From Acidimicrobiaceae bacterium (GTDB lineage: Bacteria; Actinomycetota; Acidimicrobiia; Acidimicrobiales; RAAP-2): a stretch of DNA of 64,000 nucleotides. Under the pieces are notes generated by a model that worked only from the letters and a program-made list of their open reading frames with translations, was not told the origin of the DNA and made no database searches. Shown here piece by piece: positions 4,822 to 62,698 of this stretch (position 1 is its first letter; each line of letters starts with the position of its first letter). The translations under genes and the position numbers were made by a program. Where the stretch lies: positions 152,454 to 216,453 of the forward strand of contig PKYQ01000028.1 in assembly GCA_003133685.1 (NCBI GenBank), written 5' to 3'.

Positions 4822-5043
4822 ACCAACCTTCGCGGTGACGACTTCGATCCCGACACGTCGTACCGGTCAACTGCCACCCCAACTGGTATGGCGGGTCACG
4901 TAGATTCGATCGAAAAATGGTGGCCTCATGGACCGGAAACGGTGCCGTTGGTCTTCCACAACTTTCGAACAATCATGCTGTGAGCAGGTGATTTGCCCTA
5001 TACAGATTGTCAAAGGTATGAATCATCCGGTTAATATATTTTG

Positions 5044-5658
5044 ATGGCAAAACAGAACCGCTCCGCGCCGGTCATGCAGGCTGTCCTGAACGCGGTCGGA
5101 GATCGCCTGATGAAGGGCGATGAATCGCTCATTCGCATTCCAGAAATCTGCGAAGCGACCGGCGTCAACTACGGCTCGGTGTACCACCACTTCGGATCGC
5201 GCGAGGGTGTCATCGACGCGGCCTATCACCAGATGTTCACCACATTGGCTGAAGAGGACCTCGAAACGTTGCACTCGGTCAGCGTCTCATCGCAGAGTTT
5301 CGAAGAGTATCTCGTGGCGATGCAGGGCCTCATCGGGACTTTCGCCTCCAGCGACGTTCGTCGCGCCCGTCGAGCCTTGCGGGCCCGCATCGTTGCCGCC
5401 TCCATGATGCGACCCGAACTGCGAGTGCTCATAGGTGCCACGCAGTCGCGTCTCACGAACGAATTGCGGTCGATCGTCGAATACGGTCAGGAGCGCGAGT
5501 GGCTCAATCGTGATCTCTCGGCCCACGCGGTCGCCGTATTGATCCAAGTCCTGCTGGTCGGTCGCACCCTGGACGACGTGTCGACGACGCCGATCGACAA
5601 TTCGGTGTGGGAAGCGTCCATGGTGATCATGCTCGGCGTGATCCTCGCTCGTTCGTAA
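5044..5658 (+). CDS. TetR/AcrR-family transcriptional regulator
   Basis: A 204-residue one-component repressor-type protein. The N-terminal helix-turn-helix is clear (IPEICEATGVNYGSVYHHFGSREGVIDAAY, residues about 27-58), followed by an all-helical ligand/dimer domain with no recognisable effector specificity. ATG 5044 is preferred over the adjacent TTG 5041; no strong Shine-Dalgarno is visible in the AT-rich leader (GGTTAATATATT), which may also contain the promoter. It lies between the P450 gene and a small secreted protein gene, either of which could be its target. Confidence 0.9.
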   Translation: MAKQNRSAPVMQAVLNAVGDRLMKGDESLIRIPEICEATGVNYGSVYHHFGSREGVIDAAYHQMFTTLAEEDLETLHSVSVSSQSFEEYLVAMQGLIGTFASSDVRRARRALRARIVAASMMRPELRVLIGATQSRLTNELRSIVEYGQEREWLNRDLSAHAVAVLIQVLLVGRTLDDVSTTPIDNSVWEASMVIMLGVILARS

Positions 5659-5684
5659 CGGGAAAACTGTGGTGTAGTGGACGT

Positions 5685-6041
5685 ATGAAGTCTTTTCGAC
5701 TCGTCGTGGCCGTGCTAGTGCTCGCCGGGTTGGTGGTGCTCAGCTTTCGAACGACGTCGAGTTCCGCGACGGCGGCCGCGCCCGTACCGTGCACCACGTC
5801 TGCGCTCGGTCAGGCCTTCGACGGTCAGTTCCACCTGTCGTCGATTCAGAACTACGGGTGCGAAGGCGAGTGGGCCTTCGTCTGGGCGACCGTCGGTACC
5901 GGCGAGCAGGCCATTGGCGTGACCGAGGTGCTGGCCTTCAACACCACCACGCAACGCTGGGCCTTCGTCTCGCGCTCGGTCGACTGTAAGGCGAGCATCC
6001 TACCCAGTGTCGTCTACCTCCAGGGCTGCTTCTCGAACTGA
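5685..6041 (+). CDS. Small secreted hypothetical protein
   Basis: A 118-residue protein starting at ATG 5685, 26 bp after the TetR stop; the ORF-track extension to 5607 is in the TetR gene and is rejected. MKSFR followed by VVAVLVLAGLVVLSF is a signal peptide or membrane anchor. The mature part has four Cys (CTTSALG, YGCEGEW, VDCKAS, QGCFSN), suggesting two disulfides in an exported domain, with beta-rich segments such as EWAFVWATVGTGEQ. I do not recognise a family. Confidence 0.7.
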   Translation: MKSFRLVVAVLVLAGLVVLSFRTTSSSATAAAPVPCTTSALGQAFDGQFHLSSIQNYGCEGEWAFVWATVGTGEQAIGVTEVLAFNTTTQRWAFVSRSVDCKASILPSVVYLQGCFSN

Positions 6042-6085
6042 ATCAGTGCTTTCGCGGTGGTCGTGGAAACAATGAGCTCGCTTCG

Positions 6086-7423
6086 TTGCCCGAGCACGCA
6101 TCACCTACGCTCGATGTCGTGCGACGACGGGGATTCGGTTCCCTCGCGTGGGCCTCCGCGCAGGAACTTTTCGATCAAAGTACGGCCTTCGGCCGTCTCG
6201 CGCTCGTGCACGTCATCATGATGGCGGGCGACACGCTGGTCACGGTCTCACTGGCCGGCTCACTCTTCTTCTCGGTGTCGCCCACGGAAGCAAAGACTCG
6301 AGTGCTGCTCTATCTCTTGTTGACGATCGCCCCGTTCGCCGTGGTTTCACCGCTTCTCGGACCGCTCATCGACAAGTCGGCCAACGGGAGGCGAATCCTG
6401 GTCGCGATGTCGGCGCTCGCGCGCGCCGTGCTCTGTTGGATGATGAGCGAGCACCTCAACTCACTCTGGCTCTTTCCGTTGGCGTTCCTGATCTTGGTCT
6501 CCTCGAAGCTCTACGTCGTGACGCGAGGCGCACTGGTGCCCGAGATGGCGCGCACCGATCAGTTGCGCGAGCATTCGGACCACGTCGGCGGTGCGGGGTG
6601 GCCGAACACCGCGGTCGAACAGGGGAAGGGCTACTCCGGATTCAACGCGCAACTCACTTTGCTCGGCACGCTCAGTGGACTCGTGGTCGGATCGATTGGC
6701 GCGGGGATCTTGAAGGGGATCGGCGCCTCCAGTGTGCTGATCACCGCCTCCGTCGTGTTCATTGCGGCGACGGTCGCGAGCCTTCGACTTCAGCGCCCGG
6801 CGAAGGTCGTGCGCGACGAAGTTACGGGACTGACCCAGGCCGAGCGAGATCGCAACGCGCTCAATCCGATGGGCGACATCGAAGTGGTGTGGGGACTAAG
6901 TGCCGCCGCCCTTATGCGCTTCGCCGTTGGATTCGCGACGTTCCTACTGGCCTTCGGTCTACGGCGCGACAACGCCGGTCTCGGCTACTTCGCCGTCGCT
7001 TTGGCGACGAGTGCGCTCGGCGCGCTGGTGGGACTGGCGTTGGTCACGCGAGTGCGCAACGCCGTTCCGGAATCGACGTTGTTGACGTTGGCGCTACTCG
7101 CCACCGGGCTGGGCTCCGGCCTGGCCGCGCTCCATCCGACATTGATCGCCCAAGTCGTGCTCGCCGGGTGGCTGGGGCTGTGCGCGGCCGTGGCCCAGCC
7201 CACGTTTGACGCGATCACGCAACGCAACGTGGCGCCCGGAGCGCAGGGCCGGACCTTCGCGCGTTTCGCCGTTCGTCAGCAGTTGTTGTGGGTGATCGGC
7301 GCGCTGATTCCGGTCGCTATCACGCTGCGATTCGCCGTGGGCGATGGTCTGCTGGCGGTGCTCACGATCGCCGGCGGTCTCGTCTACGGCCTCGGGCGTC
7401 GCTTCGCGCACGGGCGAAGTTGA
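6086..7423 (+). CDS. MFS-like multispanning membrane protein
   Basis: A 445-residue integral membrane protein with roughly 10-12 hydrophobic helices. An early helix contains VHVIMMAGDTLVTVSLAGSLFF, and the segment LLGPLIDKSANGRRILVAMSALARAV resembles the MFS loop 2-3 motif. Arrangement and length fit the MFS of uncertain substrate. The start is uncertain: TTG 6086 is the longest, while GTG 6119 would remove 11 residues; neither has a clear ribosome-binding site. An inserted hydrophilic loop lies around residues 165-185 (HSDHVGGAGWPNTAVEQGKG). Upstream is the small secreted protein, downstream the NDH-2 gene. Confidence 0.75.
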   Translation: MPEHASPTLDVVRRRGFGSLAWASAQELFDQSTAFGRLALVHVIMMAGDTLVTVSLAGSLFFSVSPTEAKTRVLLYLLLTIAPFAVVSPLLGPLIDKSANGRRILVAMSALARAVLCWMMSEHLNSLWLFPLAFLILVSSKLYVVTRGALVPEMARTDQLREHSDHVGGAGWPNTAVEQGKGYSGFNAQLTLLGTLSGLVVGSIGAGILKGIGASSVLITASVVFIAATVASLRLQRPAKVVRDEVTGLTQAERDRNALNPMGDIEVVWGLSAAALMRFAVGFATFLLAFGLRRDNAGLGYFAVALATSALGALVGLALVTRVRNAVPESTLLTLALLATGLGSGLAALHPTLIAQVVLAGWLGLCAAVAQPTFDAITQRNVAPGAQGRTFARFAVRQQLLWVIGALIPVAITLRFAVGDGLLAVLTIAGGLVYGLGRRFAHGRS

Positions 7424-57883: not shown

Positions 57884-58618
57884 TCACTTTTTCTTGAGCG
57901 TGCAACTAGTGGTTCCGACCCCGCAGCCACCGGTCACTTTGAAGGGAAATTTATGGAACGGTATTATCGGACTGCCGACGTCAATTTGTATATTGGCGTG
58001 CGCAAGGAGCGGTGTTAGGCGAGGGTTGCCGTCGAGCCGCTTCCCGTTCTCAAATACGACCACTCTTCCTTTTGCGGGGCCGACTTGGTTCGGTCCGAGC
58101 GGCTGATTCCAAATGTCGAAGAACTGACCAAGGGAGAAATTACGTTGTCCCGGAGACTCCACGTGGATTATTCCGTCAGCCACGTGCGTGTGCAGCCAGT
58201 AGAGGCAGTCGTACGGCCCGACGTCGTAAAAGTGGCCATTCGAGAATTTCTCGAGGAGGCGAGGTTTGGTGATACCAATACCGGCCGGCAGACGCATCAT
58301 CTTGCCCTTGACGTACACGGAGACGTGAACGTGGACGTGATACTTGACTGTGTCGTCCGACTGCTTCCGGCAACTGATCCCGTCCATGGTCTGACCATCG
58401 CGAGTCGTGGCCGGCGCGAGGTTAGGAACTTTATAGATGAGGACCCCTTCGGGTCCCTTGTACGACGTGGGACTGGCGTTAGCGCTTGATGTTCCGACGA
58501 GCAAAATTGCTCCGGTTCCACCAACGGACGCAAGGACGACCAGCAGAATGGTAGGGATCGTTCTCCGAATCCTTCGCCGGAGCCGTTCTTCAACTGCAAT
58601 CATTTTTTCTTCGTTCAT
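57884..58618 (-). CDS. Membrane-anchored His-rich hypothetical protein
   Basis: A 244-residue protein from ATG 58618 (longer start at 58702 possible). One N-terminal helix (TIPTILLVVLASVGGTGAILLVG) anchors it outside the membrane. The exported part has KYHVHVHVSVYVKGKMMRLP, LHTHVADGIIHVESP, and NFSLGQFFDIWNQPLGP, with several His spaced for metal binding. Two C-terminal Cys (GGCGVGTTSC) and a Lys tail follow. I do not recognise a named family. It is on the same strand as, and 183 bp downstream of, the csoR-SHOCT pair, so a role in metal handling is possible. Confidence 0.65.
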   Translation of the reverse strand: MNEEKMIAVEERLRRRIRRTIPTILLVVLASVGGTGAILLVGTSSANASPTSYKGPEGVLIYKVPNLAPATTRDGQTMDGISCRKQSDDTVKYHVHVHVSVYVKGKMMRLPAGIGITKPRLLEKFSNGHFYDVGPYDCLYWLHTHVADGIIHVESPGQRNFSLGQFFDIWNQPLGPNQVGPAKGRVVVFENGKRLDGNPRLTPLLAHANIQIDVGSPIIPFHKFPFKVTGGCGVGTTSCTLKKK

Positions 58619-58800
58619 TGACGTCGTCGTCGTGATGGAGAACCCGTCATTGTTCGATTTTTCAGGTTCTCGCGATGATGAGCATTGGAGGGCAGCAGGC
58701 AATCATCGTGTAGTTGTGGCCCTGATGTCCTGCGTGCCCGTCGGCGTCTTTTGACGTGTCGGTCGGTTCTTCGAATTGGATATCGGAGTCGGAGCATTTG

Positions 58801-59154
58801 TCATAGCCTGACGACCTGACGGATTGTGCTCGCGACTTCGTCGAGCGCAGCGTCTGCGTCGGTGGCGGAACGACGCACGGCGTCGACGACGCAACTGTGA
58901 ATGTGGTCGTTTAAGAGACCCACGGACACCTCTTGCAGGGCGCGGGTCACCGACGAGACTTGAGTAACAATGTCCGGGCACCAGCGGTCGTCCTCGACCA
59001 TCCTTTGGAGCCCTCGAACTTGACCTTCGATTTTAGAGAGTCTCGCCAGGTAGTCGTCTTTGCCCGACGCGTAGCCTCGGATAGCGCGACGTGCCTTTCC
59101 TCGAGGGATCGGCGTGTGTTCGCCGTCCGCGTGTGATGTTGTCACGGTGGTCAT
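58801..59154 (-). CDS. csoR: CsoR-family Cu(I)-sensing repressor (copy 1)
   Basis: A 117-residue all-helical DUF156 regulator. The Cu(I)-binding CHC triad is present: Cys in DDRWCPDI, His and Cys in NDHIHSCV (H-x3-C). LSKIEGQVRGLQRMVEDD is the conserved DNA-binding/dimer helix. It has an N-terminal basic extension of about 35 residues (PIPRGKARRAIRGYASGK). It shares a TGA/ATG overlap with the upstream SHOCT gene, forming one operon. Apo-CsoR represses and copper relieves; a palindrome upstream of the SHOCT gene may be its operator. Confidence 0.9.
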   Translation of the reverse strand: MTTVTTSHADGEHTPIPRGKARRAIRGYASGKDDYLARLSKIEGQVRGLQRMVEDDRWCPDIVTQVSSVTRALQEVSVGLLNDHIHSCVVDAVRRSATDADAALDEVASTIRQVVRL

Positions 59155-59423
59155 CGCCCAACTCCAGCGACCGGAGTGCGTCCGCTGGCGTCAAGGAGTT
59201 CAATCAACTGGCGGTACTTGTCTTGGTCGATTTCGCCCTTCGCGAGTCGTGGATTAAGAATCGATCGCGCTTCATCGGGACCATTTTCAAGACGTCGGTT
59301 GGAGCGACCGATGACCAAGTAGCAGATGGCCCAGATTGCGAGTCCCCAAATGACGAGCATGGCAAGTGACATGAGAGCAATGTCCCATCCCGACGAACTG
59401 CTTCCGTATTCGAACATCGGCAT
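59151..59423 (-). CDS. SHOCT-domain-like small membrane protein
   Basis: A 90-residue protein with one membrane helix (DIALMSLAMLVIWGLAIWAICYLVIG, residues about 12-37) followed by a cytosolic short C-terminal segment ARSILNPRLAKGEIDQDKYRQLIELLD that fits a SHOCT domain. ATG 59423 has AAAGGAG 8 nt upstream, so the longer ORF (59441) is rejected. It is the first gene of the csoR operon on the minus strand. SHOCT membrane proteins next to CsoR are common in copper-resistance loci. Confidence 0.8.
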   Translation of the reverse strand: MPMFEYGSSSSGWDIALMSLAMLVIWGLAIWAICYLVIGRSNRRLENGPDEARSILNPRLAKGEIDQDKYRQLIELLDASGRTPVAGVGR

Positions 59424-59478
59424 GATTGCTTCTCCTTTCATTACTCAATTCCAAGTACAACATGCGCATGCCGAGCAA

Positions 59479-59493
59479 TACCCATGGGGGGTA
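59479..59493. promoter_or_regulatory. Possible CsoR operator in front of SHOCT-csoR
   Basis: TACCC-ATGGG-GGGTA is an inverted repeat of 5-bp arms, 56 bp upstream of the SHOCT start on the minus strand. It has the same TACCC-N5-GGGTA form as the stronger palindrome at 59664-59684, so both transcription units may be controlled by the CsoR proteins. Confidence 0.5.
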
Positions 59494-59663
59494 GGGCCTA
59501 ACGTCACTTCCTTCAATGTCGGAACTGACAAAGTGGAAACGGCGCATGAGAGAAATTTCTCGGTCGGTCTCCGGCGACAGAGATACGGGGCTTCTAAATG
59601 GACAACGCCGTCCACTAATTATCGAGCGTGTCGAGCACGGCAACAAGGGTCGCGCGTTGAGTG

Positions 59664-59684
59664 TTATACCCCCAAGGGGTATAA
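59664..59684. promoter_or_regulatory. Probable CsoR operator before csoR copy 2
   Basis: TTATACCCC-CAA-GGGGTATAA is a perfect 9-bp inverted repeat (21 nt) located 25 nt before the ATG of the second csoR. G/C-rich inner arms flanked by TATA match the published style of CsoR boxes. Its position so close to the start means a bound repressor would block the promoter and ribosome-binding site region. Confidence 0.7.
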
Positions 59685-59708
59685 TGGCGGAACGAGAAGG
59701 GATGTGCC

Positions 59709-59996
59709 ATGACCAAGCCCGCGTACGTCGACCAGAAGTCCGCACTTCAAAAACGACTGAAGCGAATTGAAGGTCAGGTTCGTGGCCTCGAGCGCATGGT
59801 CGACGAAGACGAGTACTGCATCAACATCCTCGTTCAGATTTCGGCGACGACGCGCGCGCTTCAAGCCGTTGCAATGAATCTCCTCGACGACCATCTCTCT
59901 CATTGCGTCTCCGAGGCGCTGGCAAAGGGTGGCCCGAGCGCTGACGCCAAGGTCAAAGAGGCTCAAGAAGCCATCCGAAGGTTAGTGCGCTCATGA
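59709..59996 (+). CDS. csoR: CsoR-family Cu(I)-sensing repressor (copy 2)
   Basis: A 95-residue DUF156 regulator with the Cu(I) triad: Cys in EDEYCINI, His and Cys in DDHLSHCV. LKRIEGQVRGLERMVDED is the core helix. ATG 59709 has GAGAAGGG about 8 nt upstream and the 21-nt palindrome just in front. It leads into the permease-YHS gene 77 bp downstream, so it likely represses its own operon. It shares the core but not the N-terminal extension of copy 1. Confidence 0.92.
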   Translation: MTKPAYVDQKSALQKRLKRIEGQVRGLERMVDEDEYCINILVQISATTRALQAVAMNLLDDHLSHCVSEALAKGGPSADAKVKEAQEAIRRLVRS

Positions 59997-60073
59997 AACA
60001 AATCAACAGGTTCCGTCAGATGACCCTCTTCGCGAGCGGCCTTACCGTTAGCCAGTTGCGACGGAGTTAGATA

Positions 60074-61651
60074 GTGCACGCTGAGTTCGTCGCATCCCTC
60101 ACCTTCACGAGTTTCTTTGACGATGTTGGACGAAGCCTGCGCGAAGGTTTCTTCATGTTCTGGGAGACACTCTGGGCTCTCGTGCTGGGCTTCACGCTCT
60201 CTGGATTCGTCCAAGCGTTCGTCTCCAAGGAACAGATGGAGGCCAAATTGGGCAACCATCGTCCCGCGGCGATCGGTCGCGCAGCCGGTTACGGGACCGT
60301 GTCGTCGAGCTGCTCCTACGCCGCGTCCGCCATGGCGAAGTCACTCTTCGCGAAAGGCGCGGACTTCGTGTCATCCATGGTCTTCATGGTCGCTTCAACG
60401 AATCTGGTCGTCGAACTCGGCATCGTGATGCTCGTCCTCCTCGGCTGGCAGTTCATGGCTGCGGAATTCGTCGGCGGGCCGATCATGATCGTCATTTTCG
60501 CCCTCGTCGGCGGCTTCGTGTTTCGTCGACCGCTGGTCGACGCCGCGCGCCGACGACTCACCGGCCAGGAAGCAGGAGGACACGACCATGGTGCGATGTC
60601 GGGCGTGTCGATGGACGAGCAGATGGAACTCGACCAAGCATCATTGTCGCAAAAGTTCCGTTCACCCGCGGCTTGGTCTGACGCGTCGAGTTACGCGGTA
60701 GCTGACGTCACGATGCTTCGTCGCGAATTGGTCATTGGCTACGCCGTGGCTGGTTTCTTGGCTGCCCTCGTCCCGACGCACGTATGGAACACGCTCTTCA
60801 TTCACGGCCACGGATTCTGGACGAGCCTGGAGAACGCGCTCGTTGGTCCTCTCGTCGCAGTCATCAGTTGGGTCTGCTCTATTGGAAACGTGCCCCTCGC
60901 CGCAGCGCTCTGGTCGGGCGGGATCAGCTTCGGTGGTGTCATCGCGTTCATCTTCGCGGACCTCATCGCAATGCCCCTCATCCTCATCTACCGCAAGTTC
61001 TACGGACCGAAACTCACGGTTCGCCTTGTGGGGCTCTTTTACGCCATCATGGCGACCGCCGGACTTCTGACGGAAGGAATTTTCCGACTCTTCCACGGGG
61101 TACCGACGACGCGCCACCTGGCGGTGACTTCGGCACACTTCCAGTGGAACTACACGACGTACCTGAACTTTCTCTTTCTCGCTATTGCGGCAGTCGTGTG
61201 GTGGCTCTCACGTCAACAGAAGCGCTGGGGCGGGGGACAGGGCTACGCCATCGATCCGGTCTGTGGGATGCAGGTTCGCAAAGAGAGTGCTCCGGCGCAG
61301 GCTTCGGTCGGCCACGACCACTACTACTTCTGTTCGGACCGCTGTCGCGACCGTTTCGAAGCGCAACCTGAGAAGTACACCTCGGACATGGCGCCCATGC
61401 ACGGAATGGATGAATTGGAAGGGATGACAGGTATGGGTGGCATGAACGAAATGAGCGCGCATGGCGCTCCAAAAGACAGCGCGGTTGACCCCGTCTGTGG
61501 CATGACCGTCAATCCCAAGACGGCCGCCGCACATCGATCGTACGAAGGTGTCGACTACTGGTTTTGTAACCCGGGCTGTGCCGCGACGTTCGACGCCGAT
61601 TCTGGACGCTATGTGAGTAGCCACCCGGAGTCCGAACACCCTTTGCGCTGA
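60074..61651 (+). CDS. Permease (DUF318/ArsP-like) fused to two YHS domains
   Basis: A 525-residue membrane protein. Residues about 25-190 and 215-385 are hydrophobic helices of the DUF318/ArsP permease fold, including SSSCSYAASAMAKSLF and FVSSMVFMVASTNLVVELG. Two YHS metal-binding domains follow: DPVCGMQVRKES...YYFCSDRCRDRF (about 395-440) and DPVCGMTVNPKT...YWFCNPGCAATF (about 470-515), separated by a Met-rich linker (MAPMHGMDELEGMTGMGG). The central loop has HDHGAMSG. Layout suggests efflux of Cu or a related ion with YHS/Met sites as chaperone. GTG 60074 with CGGAG upstream. In operon with csoR copy 2. Confidence 0.85.
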   Translation: MHAEFVASLTFTSFFDDVGRSLREGFFMFWETLWALVLGFTLSGFVQAFVSKEQMEAKLGNHRPAAIGRAAGYGTVSSSCSYAASAMAKSLFAKGADFVSSMVFMVASTNLVVELGIVMLVLLGWQFMAAEFVGGPIMIVIFALVGGFVFRRPLVDAARRRLTGQEAGGHDHGAMSGVSMDEQMELDQASLSQKFRSPAAWSDASSYAVADVTMLRRELVIGYAVAGFLAALVPTHVWNTLFIHGHGFWTSLENALVGPLVAVISWVCSIGNVPLAAALWSGGISFGGVIAFIFADLIAMPLILIYRKFYGPKLTVRLVGLFYAIMATAGLLTEGIFRLFHGVPTTRHLAVTSAHFQWNYTTYLNFLFLAIAAVVWWLSRQQKRWGGGQGYAIDPVCGMQVRKESAPAQASVGHDHYYFCSDRCRDRFEAQPEKYTSDMAPMHGMDELEGMTGMGGMNEMSAHGAPKDSAVDPVCGMTVNPKTAAAHRSYEGVDYWFCNPGCAATFDADSGRYVSSHPESEHPLR

Positions 61652-61691
61652 GCTCTTCTCGGAAACCTAACTTGAATGAAGGGAGGTATTC

Positions 61692-62303
61692 GTGGGCATC
61701 TACCGAGAACAAATTCTGCCGCGACTTCAAGACAAGGTCATGAAGCGAAAGGGAACAGGTGAGGTGCGAAGACGCGTCTGCGCGGGACTTTCCGGCGACG
61801 TCGTCGAAGTCGGATTTGGTACGGGTTTGAACGTTCCCTACTATCCAACGGAAGTAAGAAGGGTCTTTGCCGTCGAACCGTCGCGAGTCTGTATGCAACT
61901 CGCCGAAGAACGCATCGCGCGCTCGAACGTTAACGTCGAACTGGCCGGACTGACGGGCGAGCATCTCGATTTGCCGTCCGATTCTTTCGACACCGTGCTC
62001 TCGACGTGGACGCTTTGCACGATTCCCAATCTCGATGCCGCGCTCGACGAGTTGCGACGCGTGCTGAAGTCCGGCGGTACGTTCCACTTTGTTGAGCACG
62101 GTCACGCTCCCGACACCACGACGGCGAAGTGGCAGCGACGGATCGAGCCAATCAACAAGAAACTCGCCGGGGGATGTCACCTGACTCGGGATATCCCCGA
62201 GCACCTCGAAAGAGCCGGGTTTCAGATTGAACACCTCGACACGTACTACTTCGAGGGCGAACCGAAGCCCTTTGGTTTCACGTTCGAAGGTCGAGCGCTC
62301 TGA
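61692..62303 (+). CDS. Class I SAM methyltransferase (UbiE/METTL7-like)
   Basis: A 203-residue methyltransferase with Rossmann motif VVEVGFGTGLNVPYYP (near 35-50), the acidic loop FAVEPSRVCMQLAEERI, DTVLSTWTLCTIPN, and the later EHGHAPDTTTAKWQRRIEPINKKLAGGCHLTRDI. The GGCHLTRD and REH-type segments resemble METTL7-like (thiol/arsenic methyltransferase-like) proteins, but substrate is not proven. GTG 61692 follows GGGAGGT. It lies 40 bp after the permease, so it may belong to the same metal-response operon. Confidence 0.82.
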   Translation: MGIYREQILPRLQDKVMKRKGTGEVRRRVCAGLSGDVVEVGFGTGLNVPYYPTEVRRVFAVEPSRVCMQLAEERIARSNVNVELAGLTGEHLDLPSDSFDTVLSTWTLCTIPNLDAALDELRRVLKSGGTFHFVEHGHAPDTTTAKWQRRIEPINKKLAGGCHLTRDIPEHLERAGFQIEHLDTYYFEGEPKPFGFTFEGRAL

Positions 62304-62570
62304 AGATACATCGATGACTGGGAGTTCGCACGGTCTCTATGTGGTCGTAGAGGAATCGCCAGGATCGCGATCACATCATCGCTAACGCTTCGGCGTGATC
62401 GCTGAGCGGATCGACGATTCGCCCGGCGCAGACCTGTGAACAAGATCTCTCATTGCCCGAGAGCTCGTTTCGCATCACTTGCGGGTCGCAATACGAAGTC
62501 TTCTGGCACGTTATTTTAGGCACCTCGTGGTTCTGTTTGGGCACCTGTGGGCACTTCATAGAGGACACTC

Positions 62571-62660
62571 GTGGTGACTCGTGGTGACTCGTGGTTACTC
62601 GTGGTTGCTCGTGGTGACTCGTGGTTACTCGTGGTTGCTCGTGGTGACTCGTGGTCACTC
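62571..62660 (+). repeat. Nine-copy 10-bp tandem repeat
   Basis: Units of GTGGTGACTC and its variants (GTGGTTACTC, GTGGTTGCTC, GTGGTCACTC) run in register at exact 10-bp spacing from 62571 to 62660. The 30-bp block of three units is itself duplicated perfectly (62581-62610 and 62611-62640). A 10-bp step equals about one DNA helical turn, so repeat sites would face the same side. It could be slippage-prone and variable between strains. Confidence 0.9.
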
Positions 62661-62698
62661 GAAAGTGCTTGAAGTCATTGCTCTCTCAACGAAAACCG

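Follow-up and report, generated by a model that had tools for sequence, protein, structure and literature searches.

Bacterial copper export is generally credited to P1B ATPases equipped with HMA domains or chaperones, which are taken to be near-universal. Among the ArsP_1 membrane permeases, ArsP exports methylarsenite and other organoarsenicals, a mutant of SO_0444, which represents a family of Cu/Zn efflux transporters, is sensitive to Cu and Zn (PMC3219624), and Rv2963 of M. tuberculosis is a putative permease regulated by RicR (PMC10961391), a paralogue of CsoR. A haloarchaeal permease with YHS is already in print, since a Halovivax protein was included in a YHS alignment in 2015; in the same paper, Cu(2+) was found to stimulate an M. 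phlei cyclase six-fold in vitro through YHS (PMC4626032). In the literature searched, we found no functional study of ArsP-YHS, of YHS together with copper and a permease, or of DUF318, and public plasmid records label such fusion genes just 'permease'.

The window, by which we mean the whole stretch of 64,000 nucleotides analyzed here, from a soil actinobacterium, harbors a csoR gene followed by a permease fused to two YHS domains (Table 1). Pfam assigned the chain to ArsP_1/DUF318 (PF03773; 203.7 bits vs. a cut-off of 32.3, E 4.5e-60) and, in two stretches, to YHS (PF04945; 85.8 bits vs. a cut-off of 30.3, E 1.9e-24). The two YHS domains are identical at 18 of 44 residues, both contain D-x-x-C-G-M and the D-x-x-C...C-x-x-x-C ligand set is intact in each; these ligands account for six of the eight cysteines in the chain, with the other two, C80 (in SSSCSYAA) and C268 (in WVCSIGNVP), residing in the membrane domain. 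The earlier note had described this gene as a permease with two complete YHS domains, placed under a CsoR gene and distinct from P-type ATPases, and this description stands, the chain being an ArsP_1 permease plus YHS with no ATPase. Its proposal of a transporter with a built-in metal-capture module also remains the best reading, with 'metallochaperone' a putative role. The metal, direction, energy source and handover are inferred from regulation, motifs and genome context; we consider it probable that the protein is a Cu-derepressed copper exporter, with a YHS tail that would capture cytosolic Cu and stand in for CopA/CopZ.

Table 1. Coordinates in the window of the fusion gene, its domains and the adjoining regulatory features.
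Feature	Position	Strand	Remarks
Second CsoR-family gene	58801-59154	-	C-H-C copper triad, read from sequence
Small membrane protein, SHOCT-like C-terminus	59151-59441	-	Named by eye, no Pfam match
Second CsoR-type operator, TACCCATGGGGGGTA	59479-59493		Before the leftward SHOCT-like/csoR pair
CsoR-type operator, TACCCCCAAGGGGTA	59667-59681		In the csoR-permease promoter, between -35 and -10
CsoR-family repressor gene	59709-59996	+	Directly upstream of the permease; Cu(I) triad C37, H62, C66
Permease-YHS-YHS fusion	60074-61651	+	525 aa; GTG start preceded by GGAG
ArsP_1 membrane domain	60155-61075	+	Residues 28-334, Pfam
YHS domain 1	61247-61378	+	Residues 392-435; YHS profile from relatives
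Met-rich linker	61379-61480	+	Residues 436-469, disordered in model, unconserved
YHS domain 2	61481-61612	+	Residues 470-513; YHS profile from relatives

With CopZ/CopA, the window fusion would have in common the proposed role of cytosolic copper capture and export under CsoR, but it comprises neither an ATPase nor an HMA domain and the proteins are unrelated. Rv2963 is similar by setting, as an ArsP_1 permease linked to copper and under RicR, and may belong to the subfamily of the window permease. A permease on a Mycolicibacterium aubagnense plasmid (L142) displays the same SSSCSYAA and VCSIGNVP motifs, with 46% identity to the window protein, but differs in having a His-rich tail and no YHS. 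The haloarchaeal permease-YHS proteins (Halovivax ruber AGB15007.1 and L143 of a Halorarius plasmid, 4983-6386) carry the same fusion and belong by sequence to the same subfamily; however, in L143 the central loop and the C-terminus each bear a single YHS and, unlike in the window, no CsoR is among the annotated neighbors.

An AlphaFold2 model of the fusion (mean pLDDT 81.6, pTM 0.73) predicts a helical membrane part followed by two separate small ordered domains with a disordered linker between them, the disorder being located at residues 166-183, in the central loop where HDH and Met occur, and at residues 441-466, in the linker. Basic residues are found in the stretch past the last helix (SRQQKRWGGG) and in the central loop. 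Recognizing that basic loops face the cytosol according to the positive-inside rule, we surmise that the YHS tail should be cytosolic; that the central loop and the C-terminus lie on the same side is suggested by L143, which has a YHS in each. By sequence, we found no solved structure for the permease fold, with only YHS-like matches to phenol hydroxylase, and fold comparison of the model with Foldseek yielded no match at E <= 0.001. At the start of the gene, an ORF of 25 codons (59993-60070, + strand), in frame with the permease, begins at an ATGA that overlaps the stop of csoR and closes with TAG directly ahead of the GTG start; since most relatives begin the permease at the csoR-overlapping ATGA, the start seems to have been moved in the window.

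We regarded a CsoR as Cu(I)-responsive on the basis of a PF02583 match, a C-H-C ligand set and an operator of type 2, and the CsoR upstream of the permease displays all of these, with 99.6 bits to PF02583 (cut-off 22.8); its best NCBIfam model is RicR (NF052430), with a score of 133.3 bits, which is under the cut-off of 175. In the published CsoR consensus, ATATACCCCTNAGGGGTATAT (PMC3902906), an inverted TAC/GTA repeat flanks G-tracts. The window contains two exact TACCC-N5-GGGTA sites, one at 59479 and the other at 59667, vs. none expected in shuffles, and these are the only two in the 2.5-Mb assembly. The csoR-permease promoter, comprising TTGAGT (-35, at 59657) and TATAAT (-10, at 59680-59685), is sigma-70-like (10 of 12 positions) and is the sole promoter-like site within the scanned 59400-61760. 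As a point against the preferred explanation, exact operators near csoR were found in 14 of 50 relatives, rising to 28 of 50 with one mismatch allowed. Four CsoR-family genes were found in the genome, among which only the two in the window are of the copper type. The others (L159 and L160, on contigs 33 and 18) are CstR-like without the copper His, and are positioned near sulfide:quinone-reductase-like and CoA-disulfide-reductase-like genes (names by eye), as for persulfide sensors. In relatives, homologues of the SHOCT-like protein precede csoR and the permease.

Relatives were gathered by a scan of genome contigs, yielding 80 loci. Acidimicrobiia MAGs, from sites that include peat and permafrost soils, account for most of these, and the remainder includes Frankiales, Thermoleophilia, Dormibacterota and Streptosporangiaceae. 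One to four YHS domains were present on about 70 of the 80, comprising almost every complete member; the fusion was found in all 13 ArsP_1 proteins sampled from the window's own family of Acidimicrobiia, and it occurs elsewhere in Actinomycetota, in Dormibacterota and in haloarchaea. In view of these counts and the 2015 haloarchaeal case (PMC4626032), we rejected a unique fusion, and the earlier note's premise that the architecture is unusual was not supported. Its statement that DUF318 permeases normally end after the membrane part is true for most, but those seen are of other subfamilies: the other readable ArsP_1 proteins of the class carry CSCSAVP or CECSSVP in place of SSSCSYAA/VCSxGNVP, indicating that YHS goes with one permease subfamily. 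Within that subfamily, the DxxC..CxxxC ligand set was kept in 142 of 142 YHS domains of relatives, while C80 (SSSCSYAA) and C268 (VCSxGNVP) were invariant in 44 relatives, YHS-less members included. The first YHS domain and its conserved junction to the last helix (GGGxGYAIDPVCGMQV) are constant, whereas later copies are variable. Members without YHS, from Levybacteria, Acidobacteria, an alphaproteobacterium and the Mycolicibacterium plasmid, have tails rich in Met/His, Cys/His or His instead. Matches to the fusion profile in genomes G407 and G495 were discarded, since neither proved to be a permease, one being an XdhC-like protein (by eye) and the other a YHS-bearing ABC ATPase. In other Actinomycetota, YHS was seen fused to an ABC-transporter ATPase (L200:1151-2131) and to an XdhC-like protein (L194:1386-2714), both named by eye.

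The M/H/G linker pointed out earlier is present, its 34 residues including 7 Met, 2 His and 6 Gly (for Met, binomial P 1.4e-4 vs. its frequency in the remainder of the protein), but it is unconserved, and a role as a general functional part is not supported. Linkers with seven or more Met were found only in the window protein and its 88%-identical neighbor, the median being one, and the Met-rich linker was limited to the window and L033 among the relatives compared. A conserved copper relay was rejected as an explanation, with at least four Met in only 6 of 55 rows, three of these being copies of the window.

The genome of the window (2.5 Mb, 95% complete) yielded no HMA domain, hence no CopZ, in a search that was positive in 13 of 14 control genomes. 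No P1B ATPase was found in it either, hence no CopA; its five P-type ATPases, all without the CPx-type motif, resemble enzymes of the H+, K+ (two), Ca and Mg types. We then surveyed 198 genomes of the class for YHS and ArsP_1 matches joined in one frame, showing the fusion in 20, namely all 13 of the window's family and seven in three other families. HMA was absent in 19 of 20 fusion genomes vs. 16 of the 178 without the fusion (Fisher P 5e-16, an overstatement as it is uncorrected for relatedness), and a P1B ATPase over the cut-off was absent in 14 of 20 vs. 15 of 178; as the genomes are mostly MAGs, absence may reflect lost contigs, but the 95-98% complete members of the window's family agree. 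One of the 16 non-carriers without HMA, G170, bears a gene of the fusion's permease subfamily that is cut short where its contig ends (L138). Within the three families harboring both states, HMA was absent in 7 of 7 carriers, a result reached in 14 of 20,000 within-family permutations, the one probability here that relatedness does not inflate. In a sample of the phylum outside the class, HMA was absent in three of six verified fusion genomes vs. 23 of 331 others (P 0.007, likewise overstated by relatedness), with a single weak HMA match in each of the other three (9.7e-6, 1.9e-6 and 2.4e-11); if absence is taken as no match better than about 1e-11, a threshold picked after seeing the data, the counts become 6 of 6 vs. 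27 of 331. We found no earlier description of such a genome-level exclusion between the fusion and the HMA/P1B system for copper. Since six of the 20 carriers in the class retain a P1B ATPase, the replacement is not complete everywhere.

Based on these features, we postulate that rising cytosolic Cu(I) would take CsoR off the promoter operator, allowing csoR and the permease to be made. The cytosolic YHS domains would then bind Cu(I) via Asp and three Cys and hand it to a membrane site including C80 and C268, from which the permease would move Cu out of the cell with no need for ATP, the proton gradient being the probable driving force. In many relatives, the Cu could be accepted by a secreted cupredoxin encoded in the same cluster. 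In such a scheme, the YHS tail would substitute for CopZ and for the HMA domains found in CopA, the permease would substitute for CopA itself, and added YHS copies probably raise capacity. Copper binding by YHS is supported by the response of the M. phlei cyclase to Cu(2+) through this domain, and export by a DUF318 protein is supported by the Cu/Zn sensitivity of the SO_0444 mutant, albeit from a distant family. For the wider proposal, that CsoR-controlled YHS-permeases provide stand-alone, ATP-independent Cu export, have replaced CopA/CopZ several times with YHS in place of HMA, and serve as the main exporter in this Acidimicrobiia family, we see the odds as even. If true, there would be a second solution for copper export where P1B/HMA is missing, namely a permease with its own metal-capture domains, and a function for a widespread subfamily now annotated merely as 'permease', perhaps including the copper-induced Rv2963.

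The YHS domains of the same copper exporter may instead act as a sensor or gate, with Cu binding opening the permease and no handover, and the constancy of the first YHS domain and its junction, while copy number varies from one to four, would fit a fixed regulatory domain of this type. We surmise that this is unlikely, because the fusion is anti-correlated with HMA, the domain that CopZ and CopA have in common, which favors capture and delivery, and the His-rich or Cys/His-rich tails of the YHS-less members look like ligand-rich capture tails and not like switches. More doubtful still is a different thiophilic substrate, be it methylarsenite or another organoarsenical, as in ArsP, or Zn/Cd. 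ArsP itself does belong to the Pfam family ArsP_1, mutants of SO_0444 are Zn-sensitive besides being Cu-sensitive, and Cd as well as Cu induces the response of SO_0444-family genes. However, the locus has a CsoR with the C-H-C triad and CsoR operators at its promoter, i.e., CsoR-type and not ArsR-type regulation, with no ArsR gene among the neighbors read, and the protein scores far under the cut-offs for both SO_0444 (NF033936; 68.4 bits vs. 300) and the SaoE efflux transporter (NF040736; 62.7 bits vs. 325). The SO_0444 family, while sharing the ArsP_1 fold family, is also distinguished by a MerR-type regulator in place of CsoR and by a model that names no YHS.

As direction is not fixed by sequence, and the cupredoxin neighbors could be clients in need of copper, the permease might also serve copper uptake or supply. 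We deem this highly improbable, as excess copper de-represses CsoR (PMC3902906), which fits export, and the fusion replaces export genes in the class survey.

The gene neighborhood of the putative exporter was compared among relatives. For the 67 whose upstream sequence extends over 450 nt or more, csoR adjoins the permease in 50, most commonly with a 4-base ATGA overlap. A secreted protein of 180-260 aa with a C-P-H-GM cupredoxin motif lies near the permease in 19 of 72 loci, usually just upstream, and the two that were tested both match sulfocyanin SoxE. The L142 permease adjoins a multicopper oxidase and a heavy-metal ATPase, and the L143 permease a heavy-metal ATPase and a plastocyanin-like protein. 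In the window, 57884-58702 (- strand) encodes a secreted protein of 272 aa that contains HVHVHV and DCLYWLHTHVADGIIHVE motifs and has no Pfam match; it is conserved beside the permease in at least nine relatives (E about 1e-80 to 1e-93) and may belong to this system as a copper binder outside the cytoplasm. The downstream methyltransferase (61692-62303) was left out of the system, as it is conserved only in the nearest relative. Further downstream, the intergenic stretch 62567-62661 comprises a tandem 10-base unit within a 30-base higher-order repeat, with 95% matches.
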